Shown piece by piece: positions 2,963 to 64,000 of a DNA stretch of 64,000 bases. Position numbers and translations under genes: made by a program. Positions within the stretch are counted from its first letter, which is position 1. Every line of letters begins with the position of its first letter. The DNA lies in the NCBI RefSeq assembly GCF_004135205.1, contig NZ_CP035490.1, positions 5,065,644-5,129,643 on the forward strand. Reading direction: 5' to 3'. The stretch is from Hahella sp. KA22. Its GTDB lineage: Bacteria > Pseudomonadota > Gammaproteobacteria > Pseudomonadales > Oleiphilaceae. Below the pieces are notes generated by a model. It worked only from the letters and a program-made list of their open reading frames with translations. It made no database searches and was not told the DNA's origin.

Positions 2963-3958
2963 TCAACGTTCCAAGGTCATTTCAACACGGTTATTGCGTA
3001 CTCGGTATTGCCCGAAATCCAGAGGATTGCCATTCACCTCCAGCTTCACAGCGTCCACCGCGCCGATAATAAAGCGCAAAGGGTACTCCCCTTGAAAGTC
3101 AACCACATCGCCTTGGCGGTATAAACCCACAACGCGGTTGTTGCTCTTATCTCTCAAATCAAACCAGCAATCCCCAACAAATGTCGCCCGAACAGCAACT
3201 TTACCTATTGCAGGTTGAGGCGCTGAGGACTCAGACGCTGCAGAAGGCGCCGACTCAATGGAAGCAGGGATCTCAGCCGCCGCCGGAGCATGCTCATTTG
3301 TAGAGGCCTCAGAAGCGCCGACATCTTCTGGCTGTAGAAAATCTTCAGGGGACGGTTCCTGATCATCTTCCTCGCGACTTGAACTGTCCAGCAGTATTGG
3401 CTCAACCTCAGTGTCGGAGGCATCTTGCTCAACAGCTGGGACTAGCGGTTCAACTACATCGCCACTGTCACTGCCAGGCACAGCCTCATTTTCGCTTGAA
3501 GCGTCAGTCTCCTGCACCGTAGACTCAGAGTTCCCTGAGGGTACTAACTCTCGCCCTGAGAGAAAAAAGTAAATGAGTCCCGCCGCAACCGCCAACGCCA
3601 GTATTATCAGCCACAACCCTCCGCCACTCTTAGGCTTCTCCTCATAGGATGGCGTAGGAGCTGATCTTTCTTCTGTAAACCCGCCGTCTTCCAGGGATAA
3701 TTCCTGCTCCAGAGCTTCAATCACCCGGTCCTCGGAGAGATTGACCAACCGGGCGTATGCTCTAACATACCCTTTCAAGAACACCAAGCCAGGCAACTGA
3801 CTGTGTTCGCCATCCTCAATGGCTTTCACATAACGTGGAATAACATGCAGTCGCTCGGCTGTTTCCGGAATGCTCCAGCCCAAATTCTCCCGAGCCTGGC
3901 GCAATCGGCTGCCCGGTCGATCATTGGCGGCGGGGTTGGATGCGGCCTCGGACGACAT
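2963..3958 (-). CDS. rodZ: Cytoskeleton protein RodZ
   Basis: RodZ links the actin homologue MreB to the cell-wall elongation machinery and helps keep rod shape. The 331-residue protein has the expected order: a cytoplasmic helix-turn-helix of the HTH_25 type (about residues 18-85, LRQARENLGWSIPETAERLH), one membrane helix (about 114-135, LWLIILALAVAAGLIYFFL), a long acidic Ser/Glu-rich periplasmic linker (about 140-250), and a beta-rich C-terminal DUF4115 domain (about 255-331). It begins 2 bases after the stop of the pilF/pilW-like gene and precedes ispG, a widespread gammaproteobacterial gene order. No missing segments are seen. Confidence 0.93.
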   Translation of the reverse strand: MSSEAASNPAANDRPGSRLRQARENLGWSIPETAERLHVIPRYVKAIEDGEHSQLPGLVFLKGYVRAYARLVNLSEDRVIEALEQELSLEDGGFTEERSAPTPSYEEKPKSGGGLWLIILALAVAAGLIYFFLSGRELVPSGNSESTVQETDASSENEAVPGSDSGDVVEPLVPAVEQDASDTEVEPILLDSSSREEDDQEPSPEDFLQPEDVGASEASTNEHAPAAAEIPASIESAPSAASESSAPQPAIGKVAVRATFVGDCWFDLRDKSNNRVVGLYRQGDVVDFQGEYPLRFIIGAVDAVKLEVNGNPLDFGQYRVRNNRVEMTLER

Positions 3959-16933: not shown

Positions 16934-17018
16934 GCCGGGATGGCGGAACTGGTAGACGCGCACGACTCAAACTCGTGTTCCTTCGGGAGTGAGAGTTCGA
17001 TTCTCTCTCCCGGCACCA
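16934..17018 (+). tRNA. tRNA-Leu (anticodon CAA)
   Basis: An 85-base class II tRNA. The acceptor arm GCCGGGA pairs with TCCCGGC and is followed by A and an encoded CCA. The anticodon stem CACGA/TCGTG encloses the loop CTCAAAC, giving anticodon CAA, which reads UUG. A long variable arm (GTTCCTTCGGGAGT region) and the T loop GTTCGATTC are present. It faces away from queA. Confidence 0.96.
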
Positions 17019-43522: not shown

Positions 43523-45196
43523 CTACTGCCAGATGACCGGGGCTTTGGCGCTATACCATTGCTCCAGATGCGGCTTGTAAGCCTCTTCAATGACGTTGCG
43601 CTTCAGTTTCATGGTGGGCGTCAGAAAATTATTTTCGATCGTCCACTGTTCAGACACCACCGCCAGGAACTGCAAGCGCTCATGGGGATCAACGCTGGCG
43701 TTGATGTCTTGCAGCAGGTTTTGCAAACTCTTCTCCAATGTCTGACGGAAATCCGGATTCGTACGCTTCGGGTAGGCGTCGTCAGACAGCATGACCAGAC
43801 AATGAGGCTGCGGATAGTCGGAGCCGGCCACGCAAACCATCTCTATCTGCGGATGACTGATGATGCGGTTTTCAATCGGCGCGGGCGCAACATACTTGCC
43901 CTTGCTGGTCTTAAACAGTTCCTTTTTACGCCCAGTCAACTTGAGACGGCCCAGCTCGTCCACCTCGCCGAGGTCGCCTGTGCGTAAAAAGCCGTCTTCG
44001 GTAAGCGCCTCCGTGGTTTTATCCGGCTCCTTGTAATACCCCATCATGGTGGCGGGACTTTTCACCAAAATTTCCCCGTCCGACCCCACACGCACATCCA
44101 CGCCAGGCAACGCCTCGCCGACAAAGCCCACTTTGGTTCGTCCCGGTTTGGTCATATGAGAGTAGGCGAAGTTTTCCGACATGCCGTAGCCTTCCAGCAA
44201 CTCCAGCCCCAACCGGCGATACCAGCTGAGAATGTCCTGCGACAAAGGCGCGGAACCGCTGCCGGCGAATCTGACATACTCCAGCCCCAGGCCTTTCAAC
44301 ACTTTCTTTCTGATCAGATGCGACACGCCGGGGATCTTCAACAGGAAATTCAGTTTTTCCTCTGGCATCTTGCTCAAAACGCCCGCCTGGAACTTGGTCC
44401 AGATGCGCGGCACCGCCAGGAATAAAGTGGGCCTGGCCGCTTTCAAGTCGCGCACGAAAGTGTCCAGGGATTCGGCGAAAAACACGTGAAAACCGGTGTA
44501 CAGCGCCCCCATTTCCACCACAAAACGTTCAAACACATGTGACAGCGGCAGATATGAGAGCATCCGCTCATGGGAACCGACATCCAGAAAGTTCACGACG
44601 CCATCCGCCGCAAACGCCAGATTATTAAACGACAGCATCACGCCCTTGGGCATGCCCGTAGAGCCGGAAGTATAGACAATGGTGGCCAGCTCTTCGTGTT
44701 TACGGGGCGGACTTTCCTCCAATGGATGCGTCTTGGCGACAATATCTTCCCAGGTAGGGAAATCGTTGGGAGGGCTCAACGGATAAGAAATACAGCGAAC
44801 ATCATCCGGCACGCCGGCTTTCATAGTGTCCCAGTCGTCCAGCTTGCCAACGAACAGCACCTTGGCCTCGCTGTGCTCCAGAATCTGCTGAACACTGTCC
44901 GCGCTCAATGTCGGATATAAAGGAACCGATACATAGCCCGCCATCCAGATGGCCAGATCGCTCATGATCCAGTGGGCGCAGTTTTTCGAGAGAATGGCCA
45001 CCTTGGCGTCTTCCGGCAACCCCAGGGAGCGCAGGTAGGCCGCCATGCGTCGCGCTTCCTGCGCAGTCCGTTGAAAGGTGTAATCGACGGAAAGGTTATC
45101 GCCCATCGGCTGAGTCATGAAAACATCGCCGGGGCGGCTTTTTTCCCAGTGGTAAAGACGTTGCAATGGGGTAGGAATATGCGTGTGCAGCTCCAT
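43523..45196 (-). CDS. AMP-forming long-chain acyl-CoA ligase
   Basis: Activates fatty acids to acyl-AMP and then acyl-CoA. The 557-residue protein carries the adenylate-forming motifs: TIVYTSGSTGMPKGVMLS (P-loop), LEGYGMSENFAYSHMT, DGFLRTGDLGEVDELGRLKL and the C-terminal GRKKELFKTSKGKYVAPAPI. The ending TPTMKLKRNVIEEAY is typical of long-chain ligases. AAGGA lies 6 bases before the ATG. Chain length preference cannot be read from sequence. It stands alone; a role in supplying acyl starters to the distant NRPS is possible but unsupported. Confidence 0.9.
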   Translation of the reverse strand: MELHTHIPTPLQRLYHWEKSRPGDVFMTQPMGDNLSVDYTFQRTAQEARRMAAYLRSLGLPEDAKVAILSKNCAHWIMSDLAIWMAGYVSVPLYPTLSADSVQQILEHSEAKVLFVGKLDDWDTMKAGVPDDVRCISYPLSPPNDFPTWEDIVAKTHPLEESPPRKHEELATIVYTSGSTGMPKGVMLSFNNLAFAADGVVNFLDVGSHERMLSYLPLSHVFERFVVEMGALYTGFHVFFAESLDTFVRDLKAARPTLFLAVPRIWTKFQAGVLSKMPEEKLNFLLKIPGVSHLIRKKVLKGLGLEYVRFAGSGSAPLSQDILSWYRRLGLELLEGYGMSENFAYSHMTKPGRTKVGFVGEALPGVDVRVGSDGEILVKSPATMMGYYKEPDKTTEALTEDGFLRTGDLGEVDELGRLKLTGRKKELFKTSKGKYVAPAPIENRIISHPQIEMVCVAGSDYPQPHCLVMLSDDAYPKRTNPDFRQTLEKSLQNLLQDINASVDPHERLQFLAVVSEQWTIENNFLTPTMKLKRNVIEEAYKPHLEQWYSAKAPVIWQ

Positions 45197-53433: not shown

Positions 53434-54279
53434 ATGCTAATTTCTCCAGCATCCCTGCACTCGCATTTGGGCGACGCCAAATATCGCATTATCGACTGTC
53501 GCTTCGCGCTCAACGACCCGGAATACGGACGCCTCGCCTATCTGCAGGATCACATTCCAGGGGCCGTATACGCCGACCTGAACAAGGACTTATCAGCCCC
53601 GGTGATTCCAGGTAAAACAGGTCGCCATCCTTTGCCGGAGGTCCAAAAGTTTCTGGGCTGGCTACAGCAGGCGGGGATCACCTCGGAAGATATCGTCGTC
53701 GCCTATGATGATGGTCCCGGCGCCTACGCCTCTCGCTTGTGGTGGTTGTTAAAATGGCTCGGACACGCAGATGTCCGTATTCTGGACGGCGGTCTGAAAG
53801 CCTGGCGCGCCGCGGGTTATGAAATGTCTACTGAGCCAGCGACGCCCAAGCAGGTTGACGCTTACGAAGCGACGCCCGACGAGCGCCTGCTGGTGACGGC
53901 GGAGGAATTGCACAGCAAGCTGAACGACGCGTCGGTCAATATTCTGGACGCCCGCGCGGCGCCGCGATTCGCTGGAGAAATGGAGCCGATAGATCCAGTC
54001 GCCGGACACATCCCTAACGCAATCTGCGCGCCCTTTGAAGAAAACCTGACCCCCGAAGGCGCATTCAAACCGGAAGAAGAATTACGCCGCCGCTTCGCCA
54101 ACTATTACGCCCACGGCAAAGCCTGGGAAGTCATTTGCTACTGCGGCTCCGGCGTCACCGCCTGCCACAACATCTTCTCCGCCCACCTGGCGGGCTACCC
54201 CATGCCCAAACTCTACCCCGGCTCCTGGAGCGAGTGGATCACCGATCCCAACCACCCCATTGCCGTCGGCAACGAATAG
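53434..54279 (+). CDS. sseA: 3-mercaptopyruvate sulfurtransferase
   Basis: A two-rhodanese-domain enzyme that moves sulfane sulfur from 3-mercaptopyruvate to cyanide or thiols. The inactive N-terminal domain (about 1-130) has DCRFALNDPEYGRLAYLQDH. The catalytic C-terminal domain (about 150-281) has Cys237 in CGSGVTA, the loop typical of mercaptopyruvate rather than thiosulfate sulfurtransferases. The length of 281 residues is standard. With a complete cysteine desulfurase elsewhere in this window, it offers a second route for sulfur handling. Confidence 0.93.
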   Translation: MLISPASLHSHLGDAKYRIIDCRFALNDPEYGRLAYLQDHIPGAVYADLNKDLSAPVIPGKTGRHPLPEVQKFLGWLQQAGITSEDIVVAYDDGPGAYASRLWWLLKWLGHADVRILDGGLKAWRAAGYEMSTEPATPKQVDAYEATPDERLLVTAEELHSKLNDASVNILDARAAPRFAGEMEPIDPVAGHIPNAICAPFEENLTPEGAFKPEEELRRRFANYYAHGKAWEVICYCGSGVTACHNIFSAHLAGYPMPKLYPGSWSEWITDPNHPIAVGNE

Positions 54280-54846
54280 CCTTAGCGCAATATAAACATC
54301 CCAGCGGCGTCATTGCCTTACAATGGCGCCCTTGTCACGCTCACTTAATATTGATTTGGAATCAGTTATACCACTGCGCCCATCGATACATTCGCTCTCA
54401 TTTCTGCATGGTATTCTGAACTATTAATCCGACAAGCACATAGAAACCTTCTATTCTCCTCAAATAATATTGTCTTAACCTGTCAGGATCTAACTTTTAA
54501 AATTTACATCGTAAAATTAATCAATCTTCTTAATCCTGCTACATTACAAAATGTAACTGACAGCCCAAGAAAAATATTCAACCTGCCTCGCCCTCCCAAC
54601 AATTAACTCATATCTTTGAGAAAGATAGATATAAAATCCACGAAATTACCGACATTTTTCAGCTATCTCCAAGATCTACAGACTCATAAAAAGGCAACTT
54701 CCCTTAAGTACTTAATGCGGTTGATAAAGGAATTTAAAGAGCCGTAAATTACTTCTTTTTCGCACACCAAGTGATCGTTCACATATTTATTCTCGAAAAC
54801 AACACCAATCATTTTATAATCATTTACATCAGGGACAGGTACAAAA
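54280..54846. other. AT-rich intergenic region before the NRPS gene
   Basis: After about 54400 this 567-base spacer is visibly richer in A and T than the preceding genes and has no supported gene. Its right end carries a promoter candidate, listed separately. The AT-rich character continues without break into the first 1.3 kb of the NRPS gene. Confidence 0.5.
54793..54820 (+). promoter_or_regulatory. Candidate promoter of the NRPS gene
   Basis: TCGAAA (54793-54798, 4 of 6 matches to TTGACA), 16 bases, then a perfect TATAAT (54815-54820), 26 bases before the ATG. AGG in CAGGTACAAAA is the likely ribosome site, 7 bases from the start. Confidence 0.5.
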
Positions 54847-57800
54847 ATGTCAATTTCTAATCAAGACAAAGAAAAGTGGATTTCATTACATCCTTCCCAA
54901 GAGGAAGTTTATTTTGACCAATTAATGCATCCAGAAAGTGCTCACTACAATATTGGCGGATACTTCAAAATAAAAGGCGGCCTTAATATTGAAAAATTCA
55001 GAGAGGCGATAAAAAAATCAATCCATTCTATTGGCTTATTTGGAATAGAGTTTGATTTTTCTGGCGAAACTTTAAGGCAGAATTTTGATTCATATAATCG
55101 TAACGATGAAATATCATATTTTGACTTATCCAAAGAAGAAAACCCTTCACTGGCTGCCGAAAACTGGGTTAAAAATTATTTCTCAACCCCCTTTGATCTC
55201 AACCAGAAGTATTTATACGAAAACACATTACTCAAAATAAGCGATTCAAGCCATTGGTGGGTTAACAAGTCACACCACATATTAATAGATGGATTGGGGT
55301 ATATAAACTATGGAAAAATAGTTTCTGAGTCATATAGCAACCTAATCCATGATGAATCACTGGAATGGTTAAAAAGAACTCCCTCTTACCAAAAGTGCAT
55401 AAACAGTTCAAAAAGCTATTTTTTATCTGAAAAATATCAAAAAGACAGGCTCTACTGGATAGACCAGTTTAAGTCTTTCCCCTCTCCCTCCCTGACCCAA
55501 AAGTACGCATTAGGAAGCCATAAAAGCGAACACTACTCACTAGAACTACCTACAGATAACGCAGTTCATATAAAAAGACTGGAAAGGACATTTAACGCAT
55601 CCTTACTCAAGCTTACGGTTGCCGCCTTATCCATTTATTTTTCCAGGGTGAACTCTGTCGACACACTTACATTCGGATTACCCGTTCATAATCGCCGCAA
55701 TAAAGAAGAGCGACTTACAGTTGGAATGATGACAGGCGTCATTCCTTTTAAAGCGAGCATTTCTCCTGAGATGACCTTGTCTGAGCTTATAAAGGGAATA
55801 TCTCAAAAACTAAGAAAAAGCTATAGACATCAACGATACCCTATCAGCCATTTGAAGCGCGACTTAAAAAAAATAACCAGCAATACAGGCGAAATATTCG
55901 ATGTACTCATAAATCATGAGGCATTTAATTTGGATTTACATTTTGACGGCCTCAAAAGTTCATTTGAGCACCTATCAAGCGATGATGAGATGACGCCATT
56001 ACAAATCCGATGGTGCGATTACGGGGCCAATCAGCCTTTACAGCTCAAACTCAGCTATAGAACTGACTATTTTTCAAAAGATGAGGCCGCATTATTAGCG
56101 GACAGAATTGTCCATATGCTGCTCAGTTTTGAGCAATTTCATGATCAGTCTATCGACCTTATTCCTATCCTCACTCACCAGGAAACGCAACAGCTGCTCA
56201 TTGACTGGAACCAAACCGCCGCGCCCTATCCGGCCAACCAATGCATCCATGAGTTGTTTGAAGCCCAGGCTGTGAAGTCTCCACATGCGGTGGCGGTAGT
56301 GTTTGAAAACGACGCGTTGACCTATGGCGAACTCAACCTGCGCGCCAATCAGCTGGCTCATTACTTGATCGAACAAGGGGTGAAGCCCGACACGCTGACG
56401 GGACTCTGTGTGGAGCGCAGCCTAGAGATGATCATTGGGCTACTGGGTATCCTGAAAGCCGGCGGCGCTTATGTGCCGCTGGACCCCAGCTATCCCATGG
56501 AACGACTGGGTTACATGATCGAAGACAGCGGCGTTGAGCTGGTCGTGACTCAAACTGCGCTAAAGAGATCCATTCCTCCTCTGGCGAACATCTCCTCTAT
56601 TTGCCTGGATGCGGAAGACCATCAGCAACTACTCTCCCTGTGCTCCGATAGGAATATTGCCAAAAACCGCCTGCAACTGACTTCGCAGCACCTGGCGTAT
56701 GTGATTTACACCTCGGGTTCGACAGGAAAACCAAAGGGGGTATGCCTTGAACATCGAGGGCTGGTTAATTTGGCGCTGGCTCAGCAATCCTTGTTTGACG
56801 TCACCGCGTTCAGCCGGGTATTACAGTTTGCTTCGCTTAGTTTTGACGCCGCCACCTGGGAATGGTGCATGGCCCTGATAGCAGGCGCCTCTCTACATAT
56901 GCATAGACAGGAGACGATAGCTTCAGCTGAAGCACTTTCCGCAGTCGTGGAGCGTCAGCAATTAACACACGCGACTTTGCCGCCGGCAATGCTGGCTGTT
57001 TTAGATATTGATCAGTGGAAGAGTGTTAAGCACTTAATCGTCGCCGGAGATAGTTGTCCTTTATCACTTGCACGGCAATGGAAGGTTAACCGGAGTTTCT
57101 ATAATGCTTACGGCCCTTCGGAAGCAACCGTTTGTTGCTCGACTTATTCCTTGGCAGAACTCTCTACTGCTTTATCTATCGGCTCCCCAATTGCGAATAC
57201 ACAACTCTATGTGTTATCTCCGAACCAGTCCCTACAACCTATTGGCGTAACTGGCGAGCTCTATATTGGCGGAGCGGGACTCGCCCGCTGCTATTTAAAC
57301 CGTCCCGACCTCACCGCAGAGAAGTTCATCCCAAACCCTTTCAACGACGATCCCAATGACCGTTTGTACCGCACCGGGGATCTCGCTCGCTGGCTGCCGG
57401 ATGGAAACCTGGAGTTCCTGGGCCGGATTGATCATCAGGTCAAAATTCGCGGCTTTCGCATTGAGCTCGGGGAAATCGAGGCGGTTTTACTACAGCATGA
57501 GGCCATTAGGGAAGCCGTTGTGGTTGCTCGCGAAGACCGAGACGATAAACGTCTGGTGGCGTACGTCGTGGCAGTCGCCGATAAGACGGCTTCGAACTCC
57601 TTGATTGATGAGCTAAGGCAGATCATCAAACAACAATTGCCTGACTATATGACGCCCGCGGCGTTTGTAACCCTGGATTCACTGCCGTTAACCCCCAACG
57701 GCAAAGTCGATCGCAACGCCTTACCGGCCCCAGACTACGCCGCCTCTGCGGACGAGTTTGTGGCGCCAGCCACCCCCACGGAATGCAAACTGGCTGGCAT

Positions 57801-60800
57801 ATGGCGGTCGCTGCTAAAGATCGACCGCCCCATCAGCGCAAACGCCAACTTCTTTGAGTCAGGGGGTCACTCCTTGTTAGCCGTTCGCTTGGCCACACTC
57901 ATTCGGGAGACTTTTTCTGTCGAGGTCACGATCAAAGACCTGTTCAACACACCGCATCTGTCTGAGATCGCCGCATTAATTGAGCAAAGCGTCCCAACTG
58001 CACTTAAGGCTCCCGCCATTACGCCGAGAGATCCGCAGATCACGGAGATTCCGCTGTCCTATGCGCAACAGCGCTTATGGTTTATTGACCAGATGGAAGG
58101 CGGCAGCGCGCACTACAATATGCCCGGCGCGTTACTGCTGGAAGGTCGCTTGAATCTAACCGCATTAAACCACGCCTTATCCACGATCATTCAGCGACAC
58201 GAGAGTCTGCGCACCTGTTTCACCACGGTCGATGGCCATGCCCATCAGCACGTGCTGCCGCCCCCCGCCGACTGGGCTCTCAATGTGGTGGACCTACACG
58301 ACTTGGGAGGCGAAGCATTAGATCAAGCCATTCAACAACTTCAACTGGACGAAGCCTCCGCCCCCTTCGACTTAAGCCGAGACTATCTGCTGCGCGGACG
58401 ATTGCTACGGCTTGCCGATCAGCGCGCCTTGTTATTGCTGACCATGCACCATATCGCTTCCGATGGCTGGTCAATCGGCGTATTGGTCCGTGAGCTGAAC
58501 GCCTTGTATACGGCGTTCACTCAGGGCCAATCCAATCCCCTGCCCCCGTTAGTCGTCCAATATGCGGACTACGCCCTGTGGCAACGGAACTATTTGCAGG
58601 GCGAGCCGCTGGAGCAGCAGGTGGCGTACTGGCGAGACCAGCTGCAGGGGCTGCCGGAGGTGCATCAGTTACCCCTGGATCACCCGCGTCCGTCGGTGCA
58701 GACCTTTGACGGGGCCGCTTATCACTGTGTCATCGGCAAAGCCCTCAGTGACGCATTTAAGCGCTATTGCGTCAGCCGGGGCGCCACGTTGTTTATGGGG
58801 TTGCATGCAGCGTTTTCCGTGTTGTTGAGCCGCTATAGCGGCGAAACGGATATAGTGGTCGGTTCCCCCGTCGCCAATCGCGAGCAGGCGGAAGTCGCTT
58901 CGCTCATCGGCTTCTTTGTGAATACACTGGTTCTGCGTGCGGGTCTGTCTGAGAACCCGACCTTCGACGCATTGCTCCAGCAGTGCAGGCAAACGCCGTT
59001 GGAGGCCTACGCCCATCAACAGGTTCCCTTTGAGCAGCTGGTCGAAGCGCTACAGCCCGCTCGACATCTCAGCCATCACCCATTATTTCAGGTGATGCTC
59101 GCCCTGCAAAACAACCAGCAAGAGACCCTGTCCCTGCCCGAACTGACGCTATCGATGCAAACGCCTGAATTCACGATAGCCAAGTTTGACCTGACCTTGA
59201 ATGTAGCAGAAGACGCAGAAGGCCTGACACTGGATTGGGAATACAACAAACAGCTGTTCGAAACCGCGACCATTCAGCGTATGGCGGGTCATCTCAATCA
59301 ACTGCTCACGGAAATCGTCGCCAGACCGGATCAATCGATCAACGCCTACTCCTTGCTTACCCAGCAGGAGACTCAGCAACTGCTTGTGGACTGGAACCAA
59401 ACCGCCGCGCCCTACCCGGCCAACCAATGTATCCACGAGTTGTTTGAAGCCCAGACGGCGAAAACCCCGAATGCGGCGGCGGTCCTGTTTGAAGAGGACG
59501 CGTTGACCTATGGCGAACTCAATCGACGCGCTAATCAGCTGGCCCATTACTTAATCGAACAAGGGGTAAAACCCGACACACTGGTGGGGCTTTGCGTGGA
59601 GCGCAGCCTGGAGATGATTATAGGGCTACTGGGCATCTTGAAAGCCGGCGGCGCTTATGTGCCGCTGGACCCCAGCTATCCCATGGAACGACTGGACTAC
59701 ATGATCGAAGACAGCGGCATTGAACTAGTCGTGACTCAAACCACGCTGAACGGATCTATTCCTCCTCTGGCGAGCCTCTCCTCTATTTGCCTGGACGCCG
59801 AAAATCACCAGCAATTACTCTCCAGGCATTCTGATAAGAATATTGCTAAAGGCCGCCTGCAACTGACTTCGCAGCACTTGGCTTATGTGATTTACACCTC
59901 GGGTTCGACCGGCAGGCCGAAAGGGGTGCTTACCCCTCATCAAGGAGTAACACGTTTAGTCATCGGCAATAGCTATGCGCCATTAAGCAATAGAACCGTC
60001 ATGGGCCAGTGCGCGACGATTACATTTGATGCAGCTACGTTTGAGGTCTGGGGGGCTTTACTTAATGGCGGAAGACTGGTCCTCTATCCTCAGCCAGTCA
60101 TAGACATTCTGCAACTCCATGAGTTTATACACAACAACCATATCAACACTATATGGCTAACCTCTGGCTTATTTGATCAGTTCGCTACAGATACACCCAA
60201 GCTCAATTCCCTGAAATACATTCTAACGGGAGGAGATATAGTTTCGCCTCATACAGTTTCCAAGCTGTACTCCACGAACCCAGACTTAATAATTATTAAT
60301 GGCTATGGCCCAACTGAAAATACAACCTTTACTTGCTGCTTTACAACTTCCCCCAGCCTCGGTGTAAATAGGTCTGTTCCTATTGGTCGACCCATTAAAA
60401 ATTCAACCGTTTATGTATTATCACCGAATCAGTCACTACAACCCATTGGGGTAGCCGGTGAACTCTACATTGGCGGCGCGGGGCTCGCTCGCGGCTACTT
60501 GAACCGTCCCGACCTCACCGCAGAGAAGTTCATCCCAAACCCTTTCAACGACGATCCCAATGACCGTTTGTACCGCACCGGGGATCTGGTTCGCTGGCTG
60601 CCGGATGGAAACCTGGAGTTCCTGGGCCGGATTGATCATCAGGTCAAAATTCGCGGCTTTCGCATTGAGCTCGGGGAAATCGAGGCGGTTTTACTACAGC
60701 ATGAGGCCATTAGGGAAGCCGTTGTGGTTGCTCGCGAAGACCGAGACGATAAACGTCTGGTGGCGTACGTCGTGACAGCCGCAGATAAGACGACTTCGAA

Positions 60801-63800
60801 TGCCTTTGTCTTGATTGAGGATCTAAGGCAGACCATAAAACAGCAATTGCCGGACTATATGACGCCCTCAGCGTTTGTAACGTTGGACTCATTCCCGCTA
60901 ACCCCCAACGGCAAAGTCGATCGCAACGCCCTGCCAGCCCCGGACTATACGCCTCAAGTTGACTACATCGCACCGACGTCGCCCATTGAGACGCAGCTTG
61001 GCGCGATCTGGCGAGAAGTGCTGGGACTTGACCAAGTGAGCGTTGACGCAAACTTCTTTACCGTGGGCGGGGATTCCATAAAAGCCATGCAGGTGGCCTC
61101 CAGAGCACAACGAGCAGGCCTGGCGTTAACCACCCGTCAGCAGTTTACGCACCAGACCATTGCTGAACTCGCCTTGCAGGTGACGGCCAAAGTCGAAGCC
61201 GATGCGCCTCAGAAAGACAGCGAAGGAGCGCAGACCTTATTGCCCATACAGCAACACTTTCTCGCAACGCAGCCCATTGGCGCGCAACACTTTAACCAGG
61301 CCGTTCGCGTATCCTTACCCGCTGGCGTGACAGAAGAGTCCTTGCACCAAGCTCTGGCGGCGATAGTAGCGCGTCATGACGTATTGCGTCTGGCCTTCCA
61401 ACAACAGGCTCCACACTGGCGCGCCAGCTACCGGTCTATCGCTCCCGAAGCGATAGCCAAAACGATACAGCGTCTGAGCCTGCCTCCCATGGCGGAGGAC
61501 GCCCGGCGGCGGCAGATCATCGAGAAGGCGAACCCGTTACAAGCCAGTTTTGATCTGGCGCAACCGCCGCTAATCCGCTGGCTCTGGGTTTACGATGAGG
61601 CGACAGCCGCCAGCGAACTTATTTGGATCATGCATCACCTGATTGTGGACGGCGTGTCATGGCGGATTTTGCTCCAGGACTTGCAACAGGCGCTTGAGCA
61701 ATACGCCGCCTCCGCCACTATCACGTTGGCGCCCAAAACCAGCAGCTACCAAGCCTGGGCCGAACAACTGGAGGCGTACAGCGAGACATCCGCCTGCCAG
61801 CAAACCGCCAGTTATTGGCGACAGACGCTAAGTCAGCCCGCGCCGGACTTACCGGCCCGCCCCTTGTCGTCGACCGATAGCCTGGATTACCAGCAGACGG
61901 CTTATCACTCCCTGCAACTCAGCGAGACCTTGACTCAGCAACTGCTGCAGCAAAGCAACGCCTGTTATCACACCCAGATCAACGACCTGTTATTGACCGC
62001 TTTATTATTAGCCGTCACCGACTGGACCGGCGGCGACAGTTTACGCGTTGATCTGGAAGGACACGGGCGCGAGACGTTGTTTGAAGAGATTAACCTGAGT
62101 GAAACCGTCGGCTGGTTCACCTCTGTTTTCCCGGTGCATTTACGCAAGGCGACCAATGCATCCGCAGACTCTGCAGAGTTAGGCGAGCACATTAAGGCGG
62201 TGAAGGAACAGCTGCGACAGATACCGAACAAGGGCATTGATTATGGAGTGTTGCAACGCTTTCAATCGGACGCTTTGCCCGAGCATCAGCCCTCTGCCGT
62301 GGTCTTCAATTATTTAGGTCAGTTTGATCAAACCAACGCACTTCAGCTGTCCATGGCCGACACAGGGGAAAGCGCTGGTCCAAGACTGCAACGCGAACAC
62401 CTCCTGGGCTTCAATTGCCTGGTGGCTTCCGGGCAATGGCGACTCACTCTGGACTATCACTCCGGGCAATTCGCCGCTGAGCAAATCGCCCAACTGGCGG
62501 ACCGCTACCGCTTTTACTTAACCGAGATCATTCGCCATTGCGCCCACTCCGCGGGAAGCCATACGCCTTCAGACTTTCCTCTGGTTAAATTATCTCAACG
62601 CCAGCTCGACCGGTTACAGCAGGACTATCCCACATTAGAGGATCTCTACCCCAGCACGCCGATGCAGCAAGGGATGTTGTTCCACACCGAGCTAAGCGGG
62701 GACACGGGGGTGTATATGACCCGGCTGGGAATCATGCTGCGCCAGCTTGACCCGCTCCTGTTTCAACAGTGCTGGCGAAGCCTGATAGCGCGCCATGCCA
62801 TCCTGCGAACCGCCTTTGCCTCGGTAGAAGGACAAGAGCCGCTGCAGCTTGTTCAATCCCAGGCGGAAGCGCCCTGGCGGCGGCTGGACTGGCGTCCATT
62901 AAGTGAGACGGAGCAACAGGCGACCCTGCAGGCGCTACTGGAAGAGACGCCGCATTATGACCTGCGACGGGCGCCGCTCATGGATTTTACCCTGGCGCAA
63001 ACGGGCGACTCCGATTATTGGTTTGTCTGGCGTCACCATCATGCTTTGCTGGATGGCTGGTGTTTGCCGATCCTGTTTAAAGAACTGCTCACGCTCTATC
63101 AACACGGAGCGAATCAACAGTCCCTCCCGTTACCCGCTGTCGCGCCTTTCCGAGAGTATATCGCCTGGTTGCAACAGCAAAGCTCCACGCAGGCGGAAGA
63201 CTATTGGCGCGCCTATTTAGCCGGATTTAACGCGCCAACGGCGCTGCCCGGCGCCCGTCCGTCGATCGCCACCGCGGATGCACAGCCGCAACAGGAAGCA
63301 GGCCTGACTCTCTCAGCGACGCTCACCACGCAGCTTCAGCAATTGGCCCAGAGCCAGCAGGTGACGCTCAATAGCGTCGTGCAAGCCGCATGGGGACTGT
63401 TGCTCAGCCGCTATAGCGGCGAGCAGGATGTGGTGTTTGGCGGCACGCGCTCAGGACGCCCGGAGGCGCTGCCCGGCGCAGAGTTCATGGTGGGACTGTT
63501 TATCAACAGCGTCCCCATGCGGCTACAGCTGACAGGTAACCTCTCTATCGCCGATTGCCTGCAACAATTACATAAGGCCCAAGCCTCACACGACCATTAC
63601 AGCTACGCACCATTAGTGGATATTCAACACTGGAGCGAGATCGGCGGCGGCCGTCATTTATTCGAATCACTGCTTGTATTTGAAAACTACCCGCTGGACG
63701 CCTCATTAACGGAATCTACCTCTTCCTCCGATCGATTCGTCATAGCACAGGTTATCGCAAACGAGCAGACGAACTATCCTCTGAGCCTGTCTATAGTTCC

Positions 63801-64000
63801 CGATGACCGGCTGCACTTTAAATTGCTGTATCAACCACAGCGCTTCGCTGAGGACAGCATTCGTCGGCTGCTGACACATTTACAGCAACTTCTCATCGCT
63901 ATGACTCGGGCAGAAGCGTCATCCGCGATGAGCGGATTAAATATGCTGACCGAGCAGGAAACCCGACAACTGCTCATTGACTGGAACCAAACCGCCGCGC
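54847..64000 (+). CDS. Non-ribosomal peptide synthetase, modules C-A-T / C-A-T-E / C-(A...), runs off right edge
   Basis: One open frame of at least 3051 codons. Domains by residue: C1 about 13-435 (HHILIDG at 143-149); A1 about 445-955 (SGSTGKPKG from 623, Lys953 in NGKVDR); T1 with Ser1009 in GGHSL; C2 about 1065-1495 (HHIASDG from 1201); A2 about 1505-2025; T2 with Ser2077 in GGDSI, the form found before E domains; E about 2130-2570 (HHLIVDG from 2263, NYLGQF near 2488); C3 about 2600-3030 (STPMQQGMLFH, HHALLDG from 2731), as expected for a condensation domain that accepts a D-residue. A third A domain starts at the edge. Specificity pockets read by hand against GrsA are DAWTIAAVC(K) for A1, predicted Phe, and DAFWLGGTF(K) for A2, predicted Val, so the E domain should yield D-Val. 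A module 1 with its own C domain suggests an acyl starter or an upstream partner. A1 has ARCYL where the motif is ARGYL. Product unknown. Confidence 0.93.
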   Translation, partial: MSISNQDKEKWISLHPSQEEVYFDQLMHPESAHYNIGGYFKIKGGLNIEKFREAIKKSIHSIGLFGIEFDFSGETLRQNFDSYNRNDEISYFDLSKEENPSLAAENWVKNYFSTPFDLNQKYLYENTLLKISDSSHWWVNKSHHILIDGLGYINYGKIVSESYSNLIHDESLEWLKRTPSYQKCINSSKSYFLSEKYQKDRLYWIDQFKSFPSPSLTQKYALGSHKSEHYSLELPTDNAVHIKRLERTFNASLLKLTVAALSIYFSRVNSVDTLTFGLPVHNRRNKEERLTVGMMTGVIPFKASISPEMTLSELIKGISQKLRKSYRHQRYPISHLKRDLKKITSNTGEIFDVLINHEAFNLDLHFDGLKSSFEHLSSDDEMTPLQIRWCDYGANQPLQLKLSYRTDYFSKDEAALLADRIVHMLLSFEQFHDQSIDLIPILTHQETQQLLIDWNQTAAPYPANQCIHELFEAQAVKSPHAVAVVFENDALTYGELNLRANQLAHYLIEQGVKPDTLTGLCVERSLEMIIGLLGILKAGGAYVPLDPSYPMERLGYMIEDSGVELVVTQTALKRSIPPLANISSICLDAEDHQQLLSLCSDRNIAKNRLQLTSQHLAYVIYTSGSTGKPKGVCLEHRGLVNLALAQQSLFDVTAFSRVLQFASLSFDAATWEWCMALIAGASLHMHRQETIASAEALSAVVERQQLTHATLPPAMLAVLDIDQWKSVKHLIVAGDSCPLSLARQWKVNRSFYNAYGPSEATVCCSTYSLAELSTALSIGSPIANTQLYVLSPNQSLQPIGVTGELYIGGAGLARCYLNRPDLTAEKFIPNPFNDDPNDRLYRTGDLARWLPDGNLEFLGRIDHQVKIRGFRIELGEIEAVLLQHEAIREAVVVAREDRDDKRLVAYVVAVADKTASNSLIDELRQIIKQQLPDYMTPAAFVTLDSLPLTPNGKVDRNALPAPDYAASADEFVAPATPTECKLAGIWRSLLKIDRPISANANFFESGGHSLLAVRLATLIRETFSVEVTIKDLFNTPHLSEIAALIEQSVPTALKAPAITPRDPQITEIPLSYAQQRLWFIDQMEGGSAHYNMPGALLLEGRLNLTALNHALSTIIQRHESLRTCFTTVDGHAHQHVLPPPADWALNVVDLHDLGGEALDQAIQQLQLDEASAPFDLSRDYLLRGRLLRLADQRALLLLTMHHIASDGWSIGVLVRELNALYTAFTQGQSNPLPPLVVQYADYALWQRNYLQGEPLEQQVAYWRDQLQGLPEVHQLPLDHPRPSVQTFDGAAYHCVIGKALSDAFKRYCVSRGATLFMGLHAAFSVLLSRYSGETDIVVGSPVANREQAEVASLIGFFVNTLVLRAGLSENPTFDALLQQCRQTPLEAYAHQQVPFEQLVEALQPARHLSHHPLFQVMLALQNNQQETLSLPELTLSMQTPEFTIAKFDLTLNVAEDAEGLTLDWEYNKQLFETATIQRMAGHLNQLLTEIVARPDQSINAYSLLTQQETQQLLVDWNQTAAPYPANQCIHELFEAQTAKTPNAAAVLFEEDALTYGELNRRANQLAHYLIEQGVKPDTLVGLCVERSLEMIIGLLGILKAGGAYVPLDPSYPMERLDYMIEDSGIELVVTQTTLNGSIPPLASLSSICLDAENHQQLLSRHSDKNIAKGRLQLTSQHLAYVIYTSGSTGRPKGVLTPHQGVTRLVIGNSYAPLSNRTVMGQCATITFDAATFEVWGALLNGGRLVLYPQPVIDILQLHEFIHNNHINTIWLTSGLFDQFATDTPKLNSLKYILTGGDIVSPHTVSKLYSTNPDLIIINGYGPTENTTFTCCFTTSPSLGVNRSVPIGRPIKNSTVYVLSPNQSLQPIGVAGELYIGGAGLARGYLNRPDLTAEKFIPNPFNDDPNDRLYRTGDLVRWLPDGNLEFLGRIDHQVKIRGFRIELGEIEAVLLQHEAIREAVVVAREDRDDKRLVAYVVTAADKTTSNAFVLIEDLRQTIKQQLPDYMTPSAFVTLDSFPLTPNGKVDRNALPAPDYTPQVDYIAPTSPIETQLGAIWREVLGLDQVSVDANFFTVGGDSIKAMQVASRAQRAGLALTTRQQFTHQTIAELALQVTAKVEADAPQKDSEGAQTLLPIQQHFLATQPIGAQHFNQAVRVSLPAGVTEESLHQALAAIVARHDVLRLAFQQQAPHWRASYRSIAPEAIAKTIQRLSLPPMAEDARRRQIIEKANPLQASFDLAQPPLIRWLWVYDEATAASELIWIMHHLIVDGVSWRILLQDLQQALEQYAASATITLAPKTSSYQAWAEQLEAYSETSACQQTASYWRQTLSQPAPDLPARPLSSTDSLDYQQTAYHSLQLSETLTQQLLQQSNACYHTQINDLLLTALLLAVTDWTGGDSLRVDLEGHGRETLFEEINLSETVGWFTSVFPVHLRKATNASADSAELGEHIKAVKEQLRQIPNKGIDYGVLQRFQSDALPEHQPSAVVFNYLGQFDQTNALQLSMADTGESAGPRLQREHLLGFNCLVASGQWRLTLDYHSGQFAAEQIAQLADRYRFYLTEIIRHCAHSAGSHTPSDFPLVKLSQRQLDRLQQDYPTLEDLYPSTPMQQGMLFHTELSGDTGVYMTRLGIMLRQLDPLLFQQCWRSLIARHAILRTAFASVEGQEPLQLVQSQAEAPWRRLDWRPLSETEQQATLQALLEETPHYDLRRAPLMDFTLAQTGDSDYWFVWRHHHALLDGWCLPILFKELLTLYQHGANQQSLPLPAVAPFREYIAWLQQQSSTQAEDYWRAYLAGFNAPTALPGARPSIATADAQPQQEAGLTLSATLTTQLQQLAQSQQVTLNSVVQAAWGLLLSRYSGEQDVVFGGTRSGRPEALPGAEFMVGLFINSVPMRLQLTGNLSIADCLQQLHKAQASHDHYSYAPLVDIQHWSEIGGGRHLFESLLVFENYPLDASLTESTSSSDRFVIAQVIANEQTNYPLSLSIVPDDRLHFKLLYQPQRFAEDSIRRLLTHLQQLLIAMTRAEASSAMSGLNMLTEQETRQLLIDWNQTAA
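56194..56740 (+). repeat. Intermodule repeat, copy 1 (start of A1)
   Basis: Starts with CTGCTCATTGACTGGAACCA and runs to the A3 motif of A1. It is highly similar to 59380-59927 at the start of A2 (offset 3186 bases, then small differences). Its first 31 bases are identical to the last 31 bases of the window (63970-64000), where a third copy begins. Confidence 0.85.
57301..57570 (+). repeat. Near-identical A-domain block, copy 1 (A1 C-terminal subdomain)
   Basis: Starting CGTCCCGACCTCACC, this 270-base block recurs at 60505-60774 with only two mismatches seen by eye (CTCGCTC versus CTGGTTC near 57382). It covers the A6-A9 region from NRPDLTAEKF to VAYVV. Confidence 0.88.
59380..59927 (+). repeat. 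Intermodule repeat, copy 2 (start of A2)
   Basis: Counterpart of 56194-56740. It encodes the segment from LLVDWNQTAAPYPANQ through the phosphate-binding SGSTG of A2, with scattered synonymous and a few replacement differences. Confidence 0.85.
60505..60774 (+). repeat. Near-identical A-domain block, copy 2 (A2 C-terminal subdomain)
   Basis: Counterpart of 57301-57570, offset exactly 3204 bases. The substrate-binding cores between the repeat pairs (about 56745-57200 and 59930-60410) are not similar at the DNA level. Confidence 0.88.
63970..64000 (+). repeat. Intermodule repeat, copy 3 (start of A3, cut by window edge)
   Basis: All 31 visible bases are identical to 56194-56224, indicating that module 3 uses the same A-domain N-terminal sequence. 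Confidence 0.8.

Follow-up and report, generated by a model that had tools for sequence, protein, structure and literature searches.

In the tyrocidine and gramicidin S synthetases, an epimerization (E) domain is followed by a D-accepting condensation (C) domain and a Pro-type module. A second point of comparison is provided by RzmA and HolA, the synthetases of rhizomide and holrhizin, which are lipopeptide assembly lines opened by a starter C domain and, in the consulted part of PMC7804268, are described as lacking ACP and acyl ligase genes in their clusters. For the genus Hahella, the consulted part of PMC9030710 names prodiginines and chejuenolides as products and reports an antiSMASH survey of five genomes, which found 15 NRPS clusters and sorted them into eight groups, one of them with an E domain. 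That cluster, group VII, could be the gene described here, although the genome also contains other C-C tandems.

The window analysed here is a stretch of 64,000 nucleotides from the 6.96-Mb single-contig genome of Hahella sp. KA22. Its right end is occupied by part of a single NRPS gene (54847..64000, + strand), whose listed reading frame (54847..63999, 3051 aa) is open at the window edge. Read further along the same contig, the frame continues unbroken to a stop at window-coordinate 66681, which gives a synthetase of 3944 aa. This is a complete and intact bacterial three-module NRPS gene, belonging to a well-known enzyme class. Pfam matches, motifs and domain boundaries give the order C1-A1-T1-C2-A2-T2-E-C3-A3-T3-TE: the portion inside the window contains 4 Condensation, 2 AMP-binding, 2 AMP-binding_C and 2 PP-binding stretches, and the full 3944-aa protein 4, 3, 3 and 3 of these, respectively, together with one Thioesterase. 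The histidine motifs of the C family are intact (HHILIDG at residue 143, HHIASDG at 1201, HHLIVDG of the E domain at 2263 and HHALLDG at 2731), as are those of the A domains (YTSGSTG and NGKVD, three times each) and T domains (GGHS at 1006, GGDS at 2073 and GGHS at 3605), and a terminal release domain is present (PF00975 at aa 3674-3923, TE motif GHSFGG at 3743). With C, A and T domains in order and their catalytic motifs in place, the protein is a type I modular NRPS. The first-pass annotation of the window had read C-A-T-C-A-T-E-C with intact catalytic motifs and the beginning of a third A domain. Pfam and the motif positions bear out this order, and the third A domain does begin in the window, but only about 5 of its residues lie there (63985..64000, +; from residue 3047 of 3051, a boundary set in this analysis), and its substrate is unreadable from the window alone. 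The domain runs on to 65598 outside the window, followed on the same strand and contig by T3 (to 65778) and the TE (65821-66621). The possibility of a gene broken downstream, raised in the same annotation, is settled by the intact stop.

The nature of the first domain is central to any reading of the assembly line. C1 (aa 10-437; 54874..56157, +) is supported as a starter-type, putatively acyl-accepting condensation domain by its place in a tree, its sequence and its predicted fold, in agreement with the earlier suggestion that it may accept an acyl starter. It stands first in the line, with no upstream module and with a rhodanese gene preceding it, and it keeps the HHxxxDG motif. A tree of 42 C-family domains was built from the synthetase, nine relative proteins and the orthologue's C1; in it, C1 belongs to a clade of 10 domains that each come first in their line (support 0.992). 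The 11 sequences initially labelled as starters form no clade; the one left out, the first domain of a second frame in the G562 locus, fell among domains that follow a T domain. A C1-like domain opens the frame in all eight fetched relative proteins, which come from 5 of the 30 order genomes with matches and from 2 plasmid records. The best solved relatives of C1 by sequence are the starters of RzmA (2e-34) and CDA (1e-21), with bacitracin synthase 3 close behind (2e-20), and the 20 best PDB matches of its AlphaFold2 model (8 sequences, mean pLDDT 85.9) are without exception starter domains of RzmA or CDA. In RzmA, according to the consulted part of PMC7804268, chain length is set by the side chain at R148, with Q36 and Y138 also involved. 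In the alignment with RzmA, the R148 site corresponds to Tyr152 of C1, which by the logic of that paper would favour a short chain, whereas Gly38 and Ser142 at the sites of Q36 and Y138 would leave more room; because these residues point in opposite ways, we claim no acyl length. All three are identical in the orthologue of the sister strain, G001, and the site of RzmA M143 is occupied by Ile147 here and by Met in G001.

The remaining condensation-type domains can be placed by the same tree. C2 (aa 1067-1500; 58045..59346, +) groups with domains that follow a T domain and is presumably of the L-accepting type; its 14-member clade (support 0.998) includes one subunit start, and 2 of the 15 domains of this kind lie outside it, both from Mycetohabitans and branching beside the C-after-E group. 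The E domain (aa 2130-2569, with HHLIVDG; 61234..62553, +) falls in the E clade (8 members, support 1.0). It follows the Val module, whose T2 (aa 2042-2112; 60970..61182, +; placed by motif and boundaries) carries GGDSI, and its position and clade uphold the proposed epimerisation of Val as the probable role of this domain. C3 (aa 2599-3028; 62641..63930, +) groups with the 8 C-after-E domains in a clade with support of only 0.51. Its best solved enzymes are McyB, PvdL, BacC and TycB (3e-105 to 3e-80), with TycC at 2e-27; the C domains of McyB, BacC and TycB follow an E domain, and the title of the PvdL structure entry reads E2-C3-A3. The assignment of C3 as a D-accepting domain after E is thus supported, as a prediction from sequence.

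Alignment gives the pocket codes DAWTIAAVCK for A1 (aa 455-985; 56209..57801, +), which is followed by T1 (aa 973-1045; 57763..57981, +; placed by motif and boundaries), DAFWLGGTFK for A2 (aa 1517-2054; 59395..61008, +) and DVQFIAHVVK for A3. It reproduces the codes DAWTIAAVC and DAFWLGGTF previously read by hand, an agreement that verifies the reading and not the substrate. The A1 code is a Phe-type code. The ten-residue codes support the prediction of Phe for A1, Val for A2 and Pro for A3, and the Phe-like and Val-like character proposed earlier for A1 and A2 agrees with them. In the consulted part of PMC9113097, DAFWLGGTFK is given as Val, and DVQYVAHVVK, which is similar to the A3 code, as Pro. 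The strings DAWTIAAVC and DVQFIAHVV had no match in the literature searched. Codes do not prove substrates, and A2 of the G001 orthologue is one pocket residue off, so that the A domains might take substrates other than those coded, such as another aromatic residue at A1 or, in G001, another aliphatic residue at A2. We consider this improbable, since the three codes match or nearly match those for Phe, Val and Pro. The difference between DAFWLGCTFK in G001 and DAFWLGGTFK here also provides a naturally occurring one-residue variant with which A2 selectivity could be probed. The A3 code itself recurs in a Methylomagnum plasmid NRPS (L079:11923-17979), which opens with two domains, a C1-like one and an A domain with the Pro code (DVQFIAHVVK), and has genes for a free ACP and for a TauD/TfdA-type oxygenase nearby.

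What could be the product of such an assembly line? We consider it likely that N-acyl-Phe-D-Val-Pro is made by a single stand-alone gene and that the TE releases it. The model builds on the observed domain order, intact motifs and pocket codes, and on domain subtypes assigned by tree and sequence, to which the predicted fold is added for C1. C1 would take an acyl thioester from general metabolism, either acyl-CoA or acyl-ACP, and couple it to L-Phe loaded onto T1 by A1. C2 would then join the acyl-Phe to L-Val on T2, the E domain would convert Val to the D form, and the D-accepting C3 would attach acyl-Phe-D-Val to the L-Pro carried by T3. Release by the TE would most simply yield linear N-acyl-Phe-D-Val-Pro, or a lactone if the acyl group bears a hydroxyl. 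Substrates, acyl length, release mode, expression and any function are what we infer in this scheme. If the prediction is true, a whole small lipopeptide comes from one gene, which would be easy to move and test. Both orthologues are probably under selection to work, because they are full length and dN/dS is 0.17 overall. Against the model stands the lack of an ACP or tailoring gene among the neighbours scanned. This same lack of a dedicated acyl-supply gene, together with the position of the TE behind the Pro module, would suit an assembly line in which C1 is idle, Phe starts the chain and the TE dimerises it to cyclo(Phe-D-Val-Pro)2 in the fashion of gramicidin S; no solved protein is closely related to the TE (best match 6.5e-14), which leaves room for such a mode of release. 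We hold the dimer to be quite unlikely, however, because C1 retains HHxxxDG under purifying selection (dN/dS 0.15 over aa 1-280) and because the starters encoded by rzmA and holA acylate although their clusters, as described in the consulted part of PMC7804268, are just as devoid of ACP and acyl ligase genes.

The surroundings of the gene are consistent with the predicted acyl-tripeptide synthetase standing alone. Upstream lie an acyl-CoA-ligase-like gene (-), ABC-transporter genes, FIST and GGDEF/EAL genes, a gene for a PLP-type enzyme in the opposite orientation and the rhodanese-family gene; downstream are a silencer gene of the MvaT/MvaU family, two short genes that match no Pfam family, and a urea-type ABC transporter. 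The neighbours scanned include no obvious partner dedicated to tailoring or export. The acyl-CoA-ligase-like gene (AMP-binding; 43523-45196, -), 9.7 kb upstream of the synthetase, was rejected as a dedicated partner because 7 of 7 same-genus genomes contain it, whether or not they also carry the synthetase, though it could still supply acyl-CoA. An MbtH gene beside the synthetase was likewise rejected, the only copy found being at 3.55 Mb. The gene is preceded by an AT-rich intergenic stretch (54280..54846; GC 0.32-0.36 in three 150-column blocks wholly inside it), and 4 promoter-like sites were counted in 54200-54960 against 2.2 expected, from which no promoter is claimed. The sole RNA gene found in the window at the gathering threshold is a tRNA-Leu (CAA) at 16934-17018 (+). 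Of 32 C-family matches in the genome as a whole, 31 exceed the Pfam cut-off, and 11 of these lie in one 41-kb NRPS region (G000:C1:4470000-4519999) with a GC of 0.63 versus 0.54 in the window.

The synthetase has a narrow distribution. Among the 6 other same-genus genomes, an orthologue is present only in G001, where it is full length and has the same flanks, its C1 being 81% identical. Matches were found in 2 of 163 family genomes at E <= 1e-40, own included; in 30 of the 390 order genomes drawn at E <= 1e-35, none apart from the own genome exceeding 39%; and in 5 of the 369 class genomes drawn at E <= 1e-25, the best besides its own reaching 27%. The rhodanese and silencer genes are separated by about 400 bp in G002 and about 790 bp in G005, and the stretches fetched at this site contain no match to the synthetase; the other three same-genus genomes carry a more distantly related rhodanese gene (48-55%). 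Such sporadic occurrence, in 1 of 6 congeneric genomes, raises the possibility that the gene is silent, or is recently acquired cargo without a current product. The AT-rich C1 and upstream stretch lie near the gene for the MvaT/MvaU-family xenogeneic silencer (window-coordinate 66881-67240, L005:13525-13884, -), which is directly behind the synthetase and outside the window, and most clusters of a Hahella strain are still silent according to the consulted part of PMC9030710. The silencer need not have arrived with the synthetase, however, because its gene occupies the same place in G002 and G005, which lack the synthetase there, and the entire frame is retained in two strains at the dN/dS given above. 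We therefore regard silence or cargo status as unlikely, if somewhat less so than either the dimer or departures from the coded substrates.

The evolutionary history of the gene appears to be composite. A1 and A2 share 84% protein identity outside but only 27% inside a core block at aa 632-777 of A1 (56740..57177, +), with a maximum chi-square of 163 versus at most 20.2 in 100 permutations. The corresponding values are 90% and 34% for A1 and A3, which differ over a longer block (aa 548-810), and 84% and 31% for A2 and A3. The orthologues of the two strains show no dip of identity in the cores, which are therefore not merely fast-evolving; with cores unrelated between modules set in near-identical frames, the A domains are core recombinants. 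Third-position GC (GC3) is 0.38 in aa 1-440 (C1) and 0.47, 0.44 and 0.54 in the cores of A1, A2 and A3, the A2 segment (aa 1687-1857, borders chosen here; 59905..60417, +) contrasting with 0.63-0.64 in its flanks. Outside C1 and the cores it is 0.63-0.68 in 8 of 10 segments, falling to 0.55 in the A3 rear flank and 0.47 in the TE, so that low GC3 alone is no proof of import. The longest exact DNA tracts between modules are 184, 134 and 117 bp here, and none exceeds 42 bp in G001. This pattern fits replacement of A cores followed by copying of the frames. As a phenomenon, A-core recombination is already known: the consulted part of PMC9205934 describes it between motif A2 and A5/A6 and presents A-domain recombination as common. 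Other NRPS genes of the same genome are not supported as the source of the cores, the best paralogue reaching 42% for the A1 core and 37% for the A3 core. The nearest A1 cores besides the orthologue (52-57%, 7 genomes searched) are in the order genomes G562, G650 and G623, and the NRPS stretches fetched from same-order genomes with the nearest C1 and A1 core have a GC of 0.37-0.48.

C1 has a further layer of exchange. Relative to G001, dS is 1.13 over codons 1-280 but 0.074 over codons 281-420, the whole gene standing at 0.43, and the near-identical part of C1 (aa 294-410; 55726..56076, +) includes an exact tract of 287 nt, the next longest in the gene being 83 nt. Set against the pS of 0.23-0.37 between the strains in four neighbouring genes, these values indicate that the C1 alleles have recombined. 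Both alleles are about equally distant from six outgroups, and the exchange has no assignable direction. An altered acyl chain is not implied, because the break near codon 294 need not be a lobe border and the pocket residues hardly differ. We tentatively suggest, at somewhat less than even chance, that the gene is a natural chimera in which C1 and the A cores arrived as separate cassettes from a related AT-rich lineage, the frames are still being copied between modules, and the front of C1, where the acyl pocket is located, has been exchanged between the sister strains. The two orthologues, which have the same cores and differ in one A2 residue and in a mosaic starter, offer a natural guide to tolerated cut points in an NRPS.

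A known product to match this gene was not found in the open-licence literature searched; the first-pass annotation had recognised none. The closest starter C domains among the 390 order genomes drawn (36-39%) belong to NRPSs of G562, G650 and G623, and in the fetched proteins an A-T-E-C block of G562 matches A2, T2, E and C3 at 59, 75, 51 and 56%, respectively; their codes and module counts differ from those of the window enzyme, and no common product can be deduced. Among solved domains, the RzmA starter is closest to C1 in both sequence and fold, yet the two are only about 24% identical, and the window enzyme differs from RzmA and HolA in having three modules and its own predicted set of amino acids. 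Its second half resembles TycA/TycB and GrsA/GrsB, with an E domain followed by a putative D-accepting C domain and a Pro-type module, and C3-A3 is a strong sequence match to a C-A fragment of TycB. In contrast to the tyrocidine and gramicidin S systems, however, the present line is predicted to start with an acyl group, to comprise three modules and to place D-Val rather than D-Phe before Pro.
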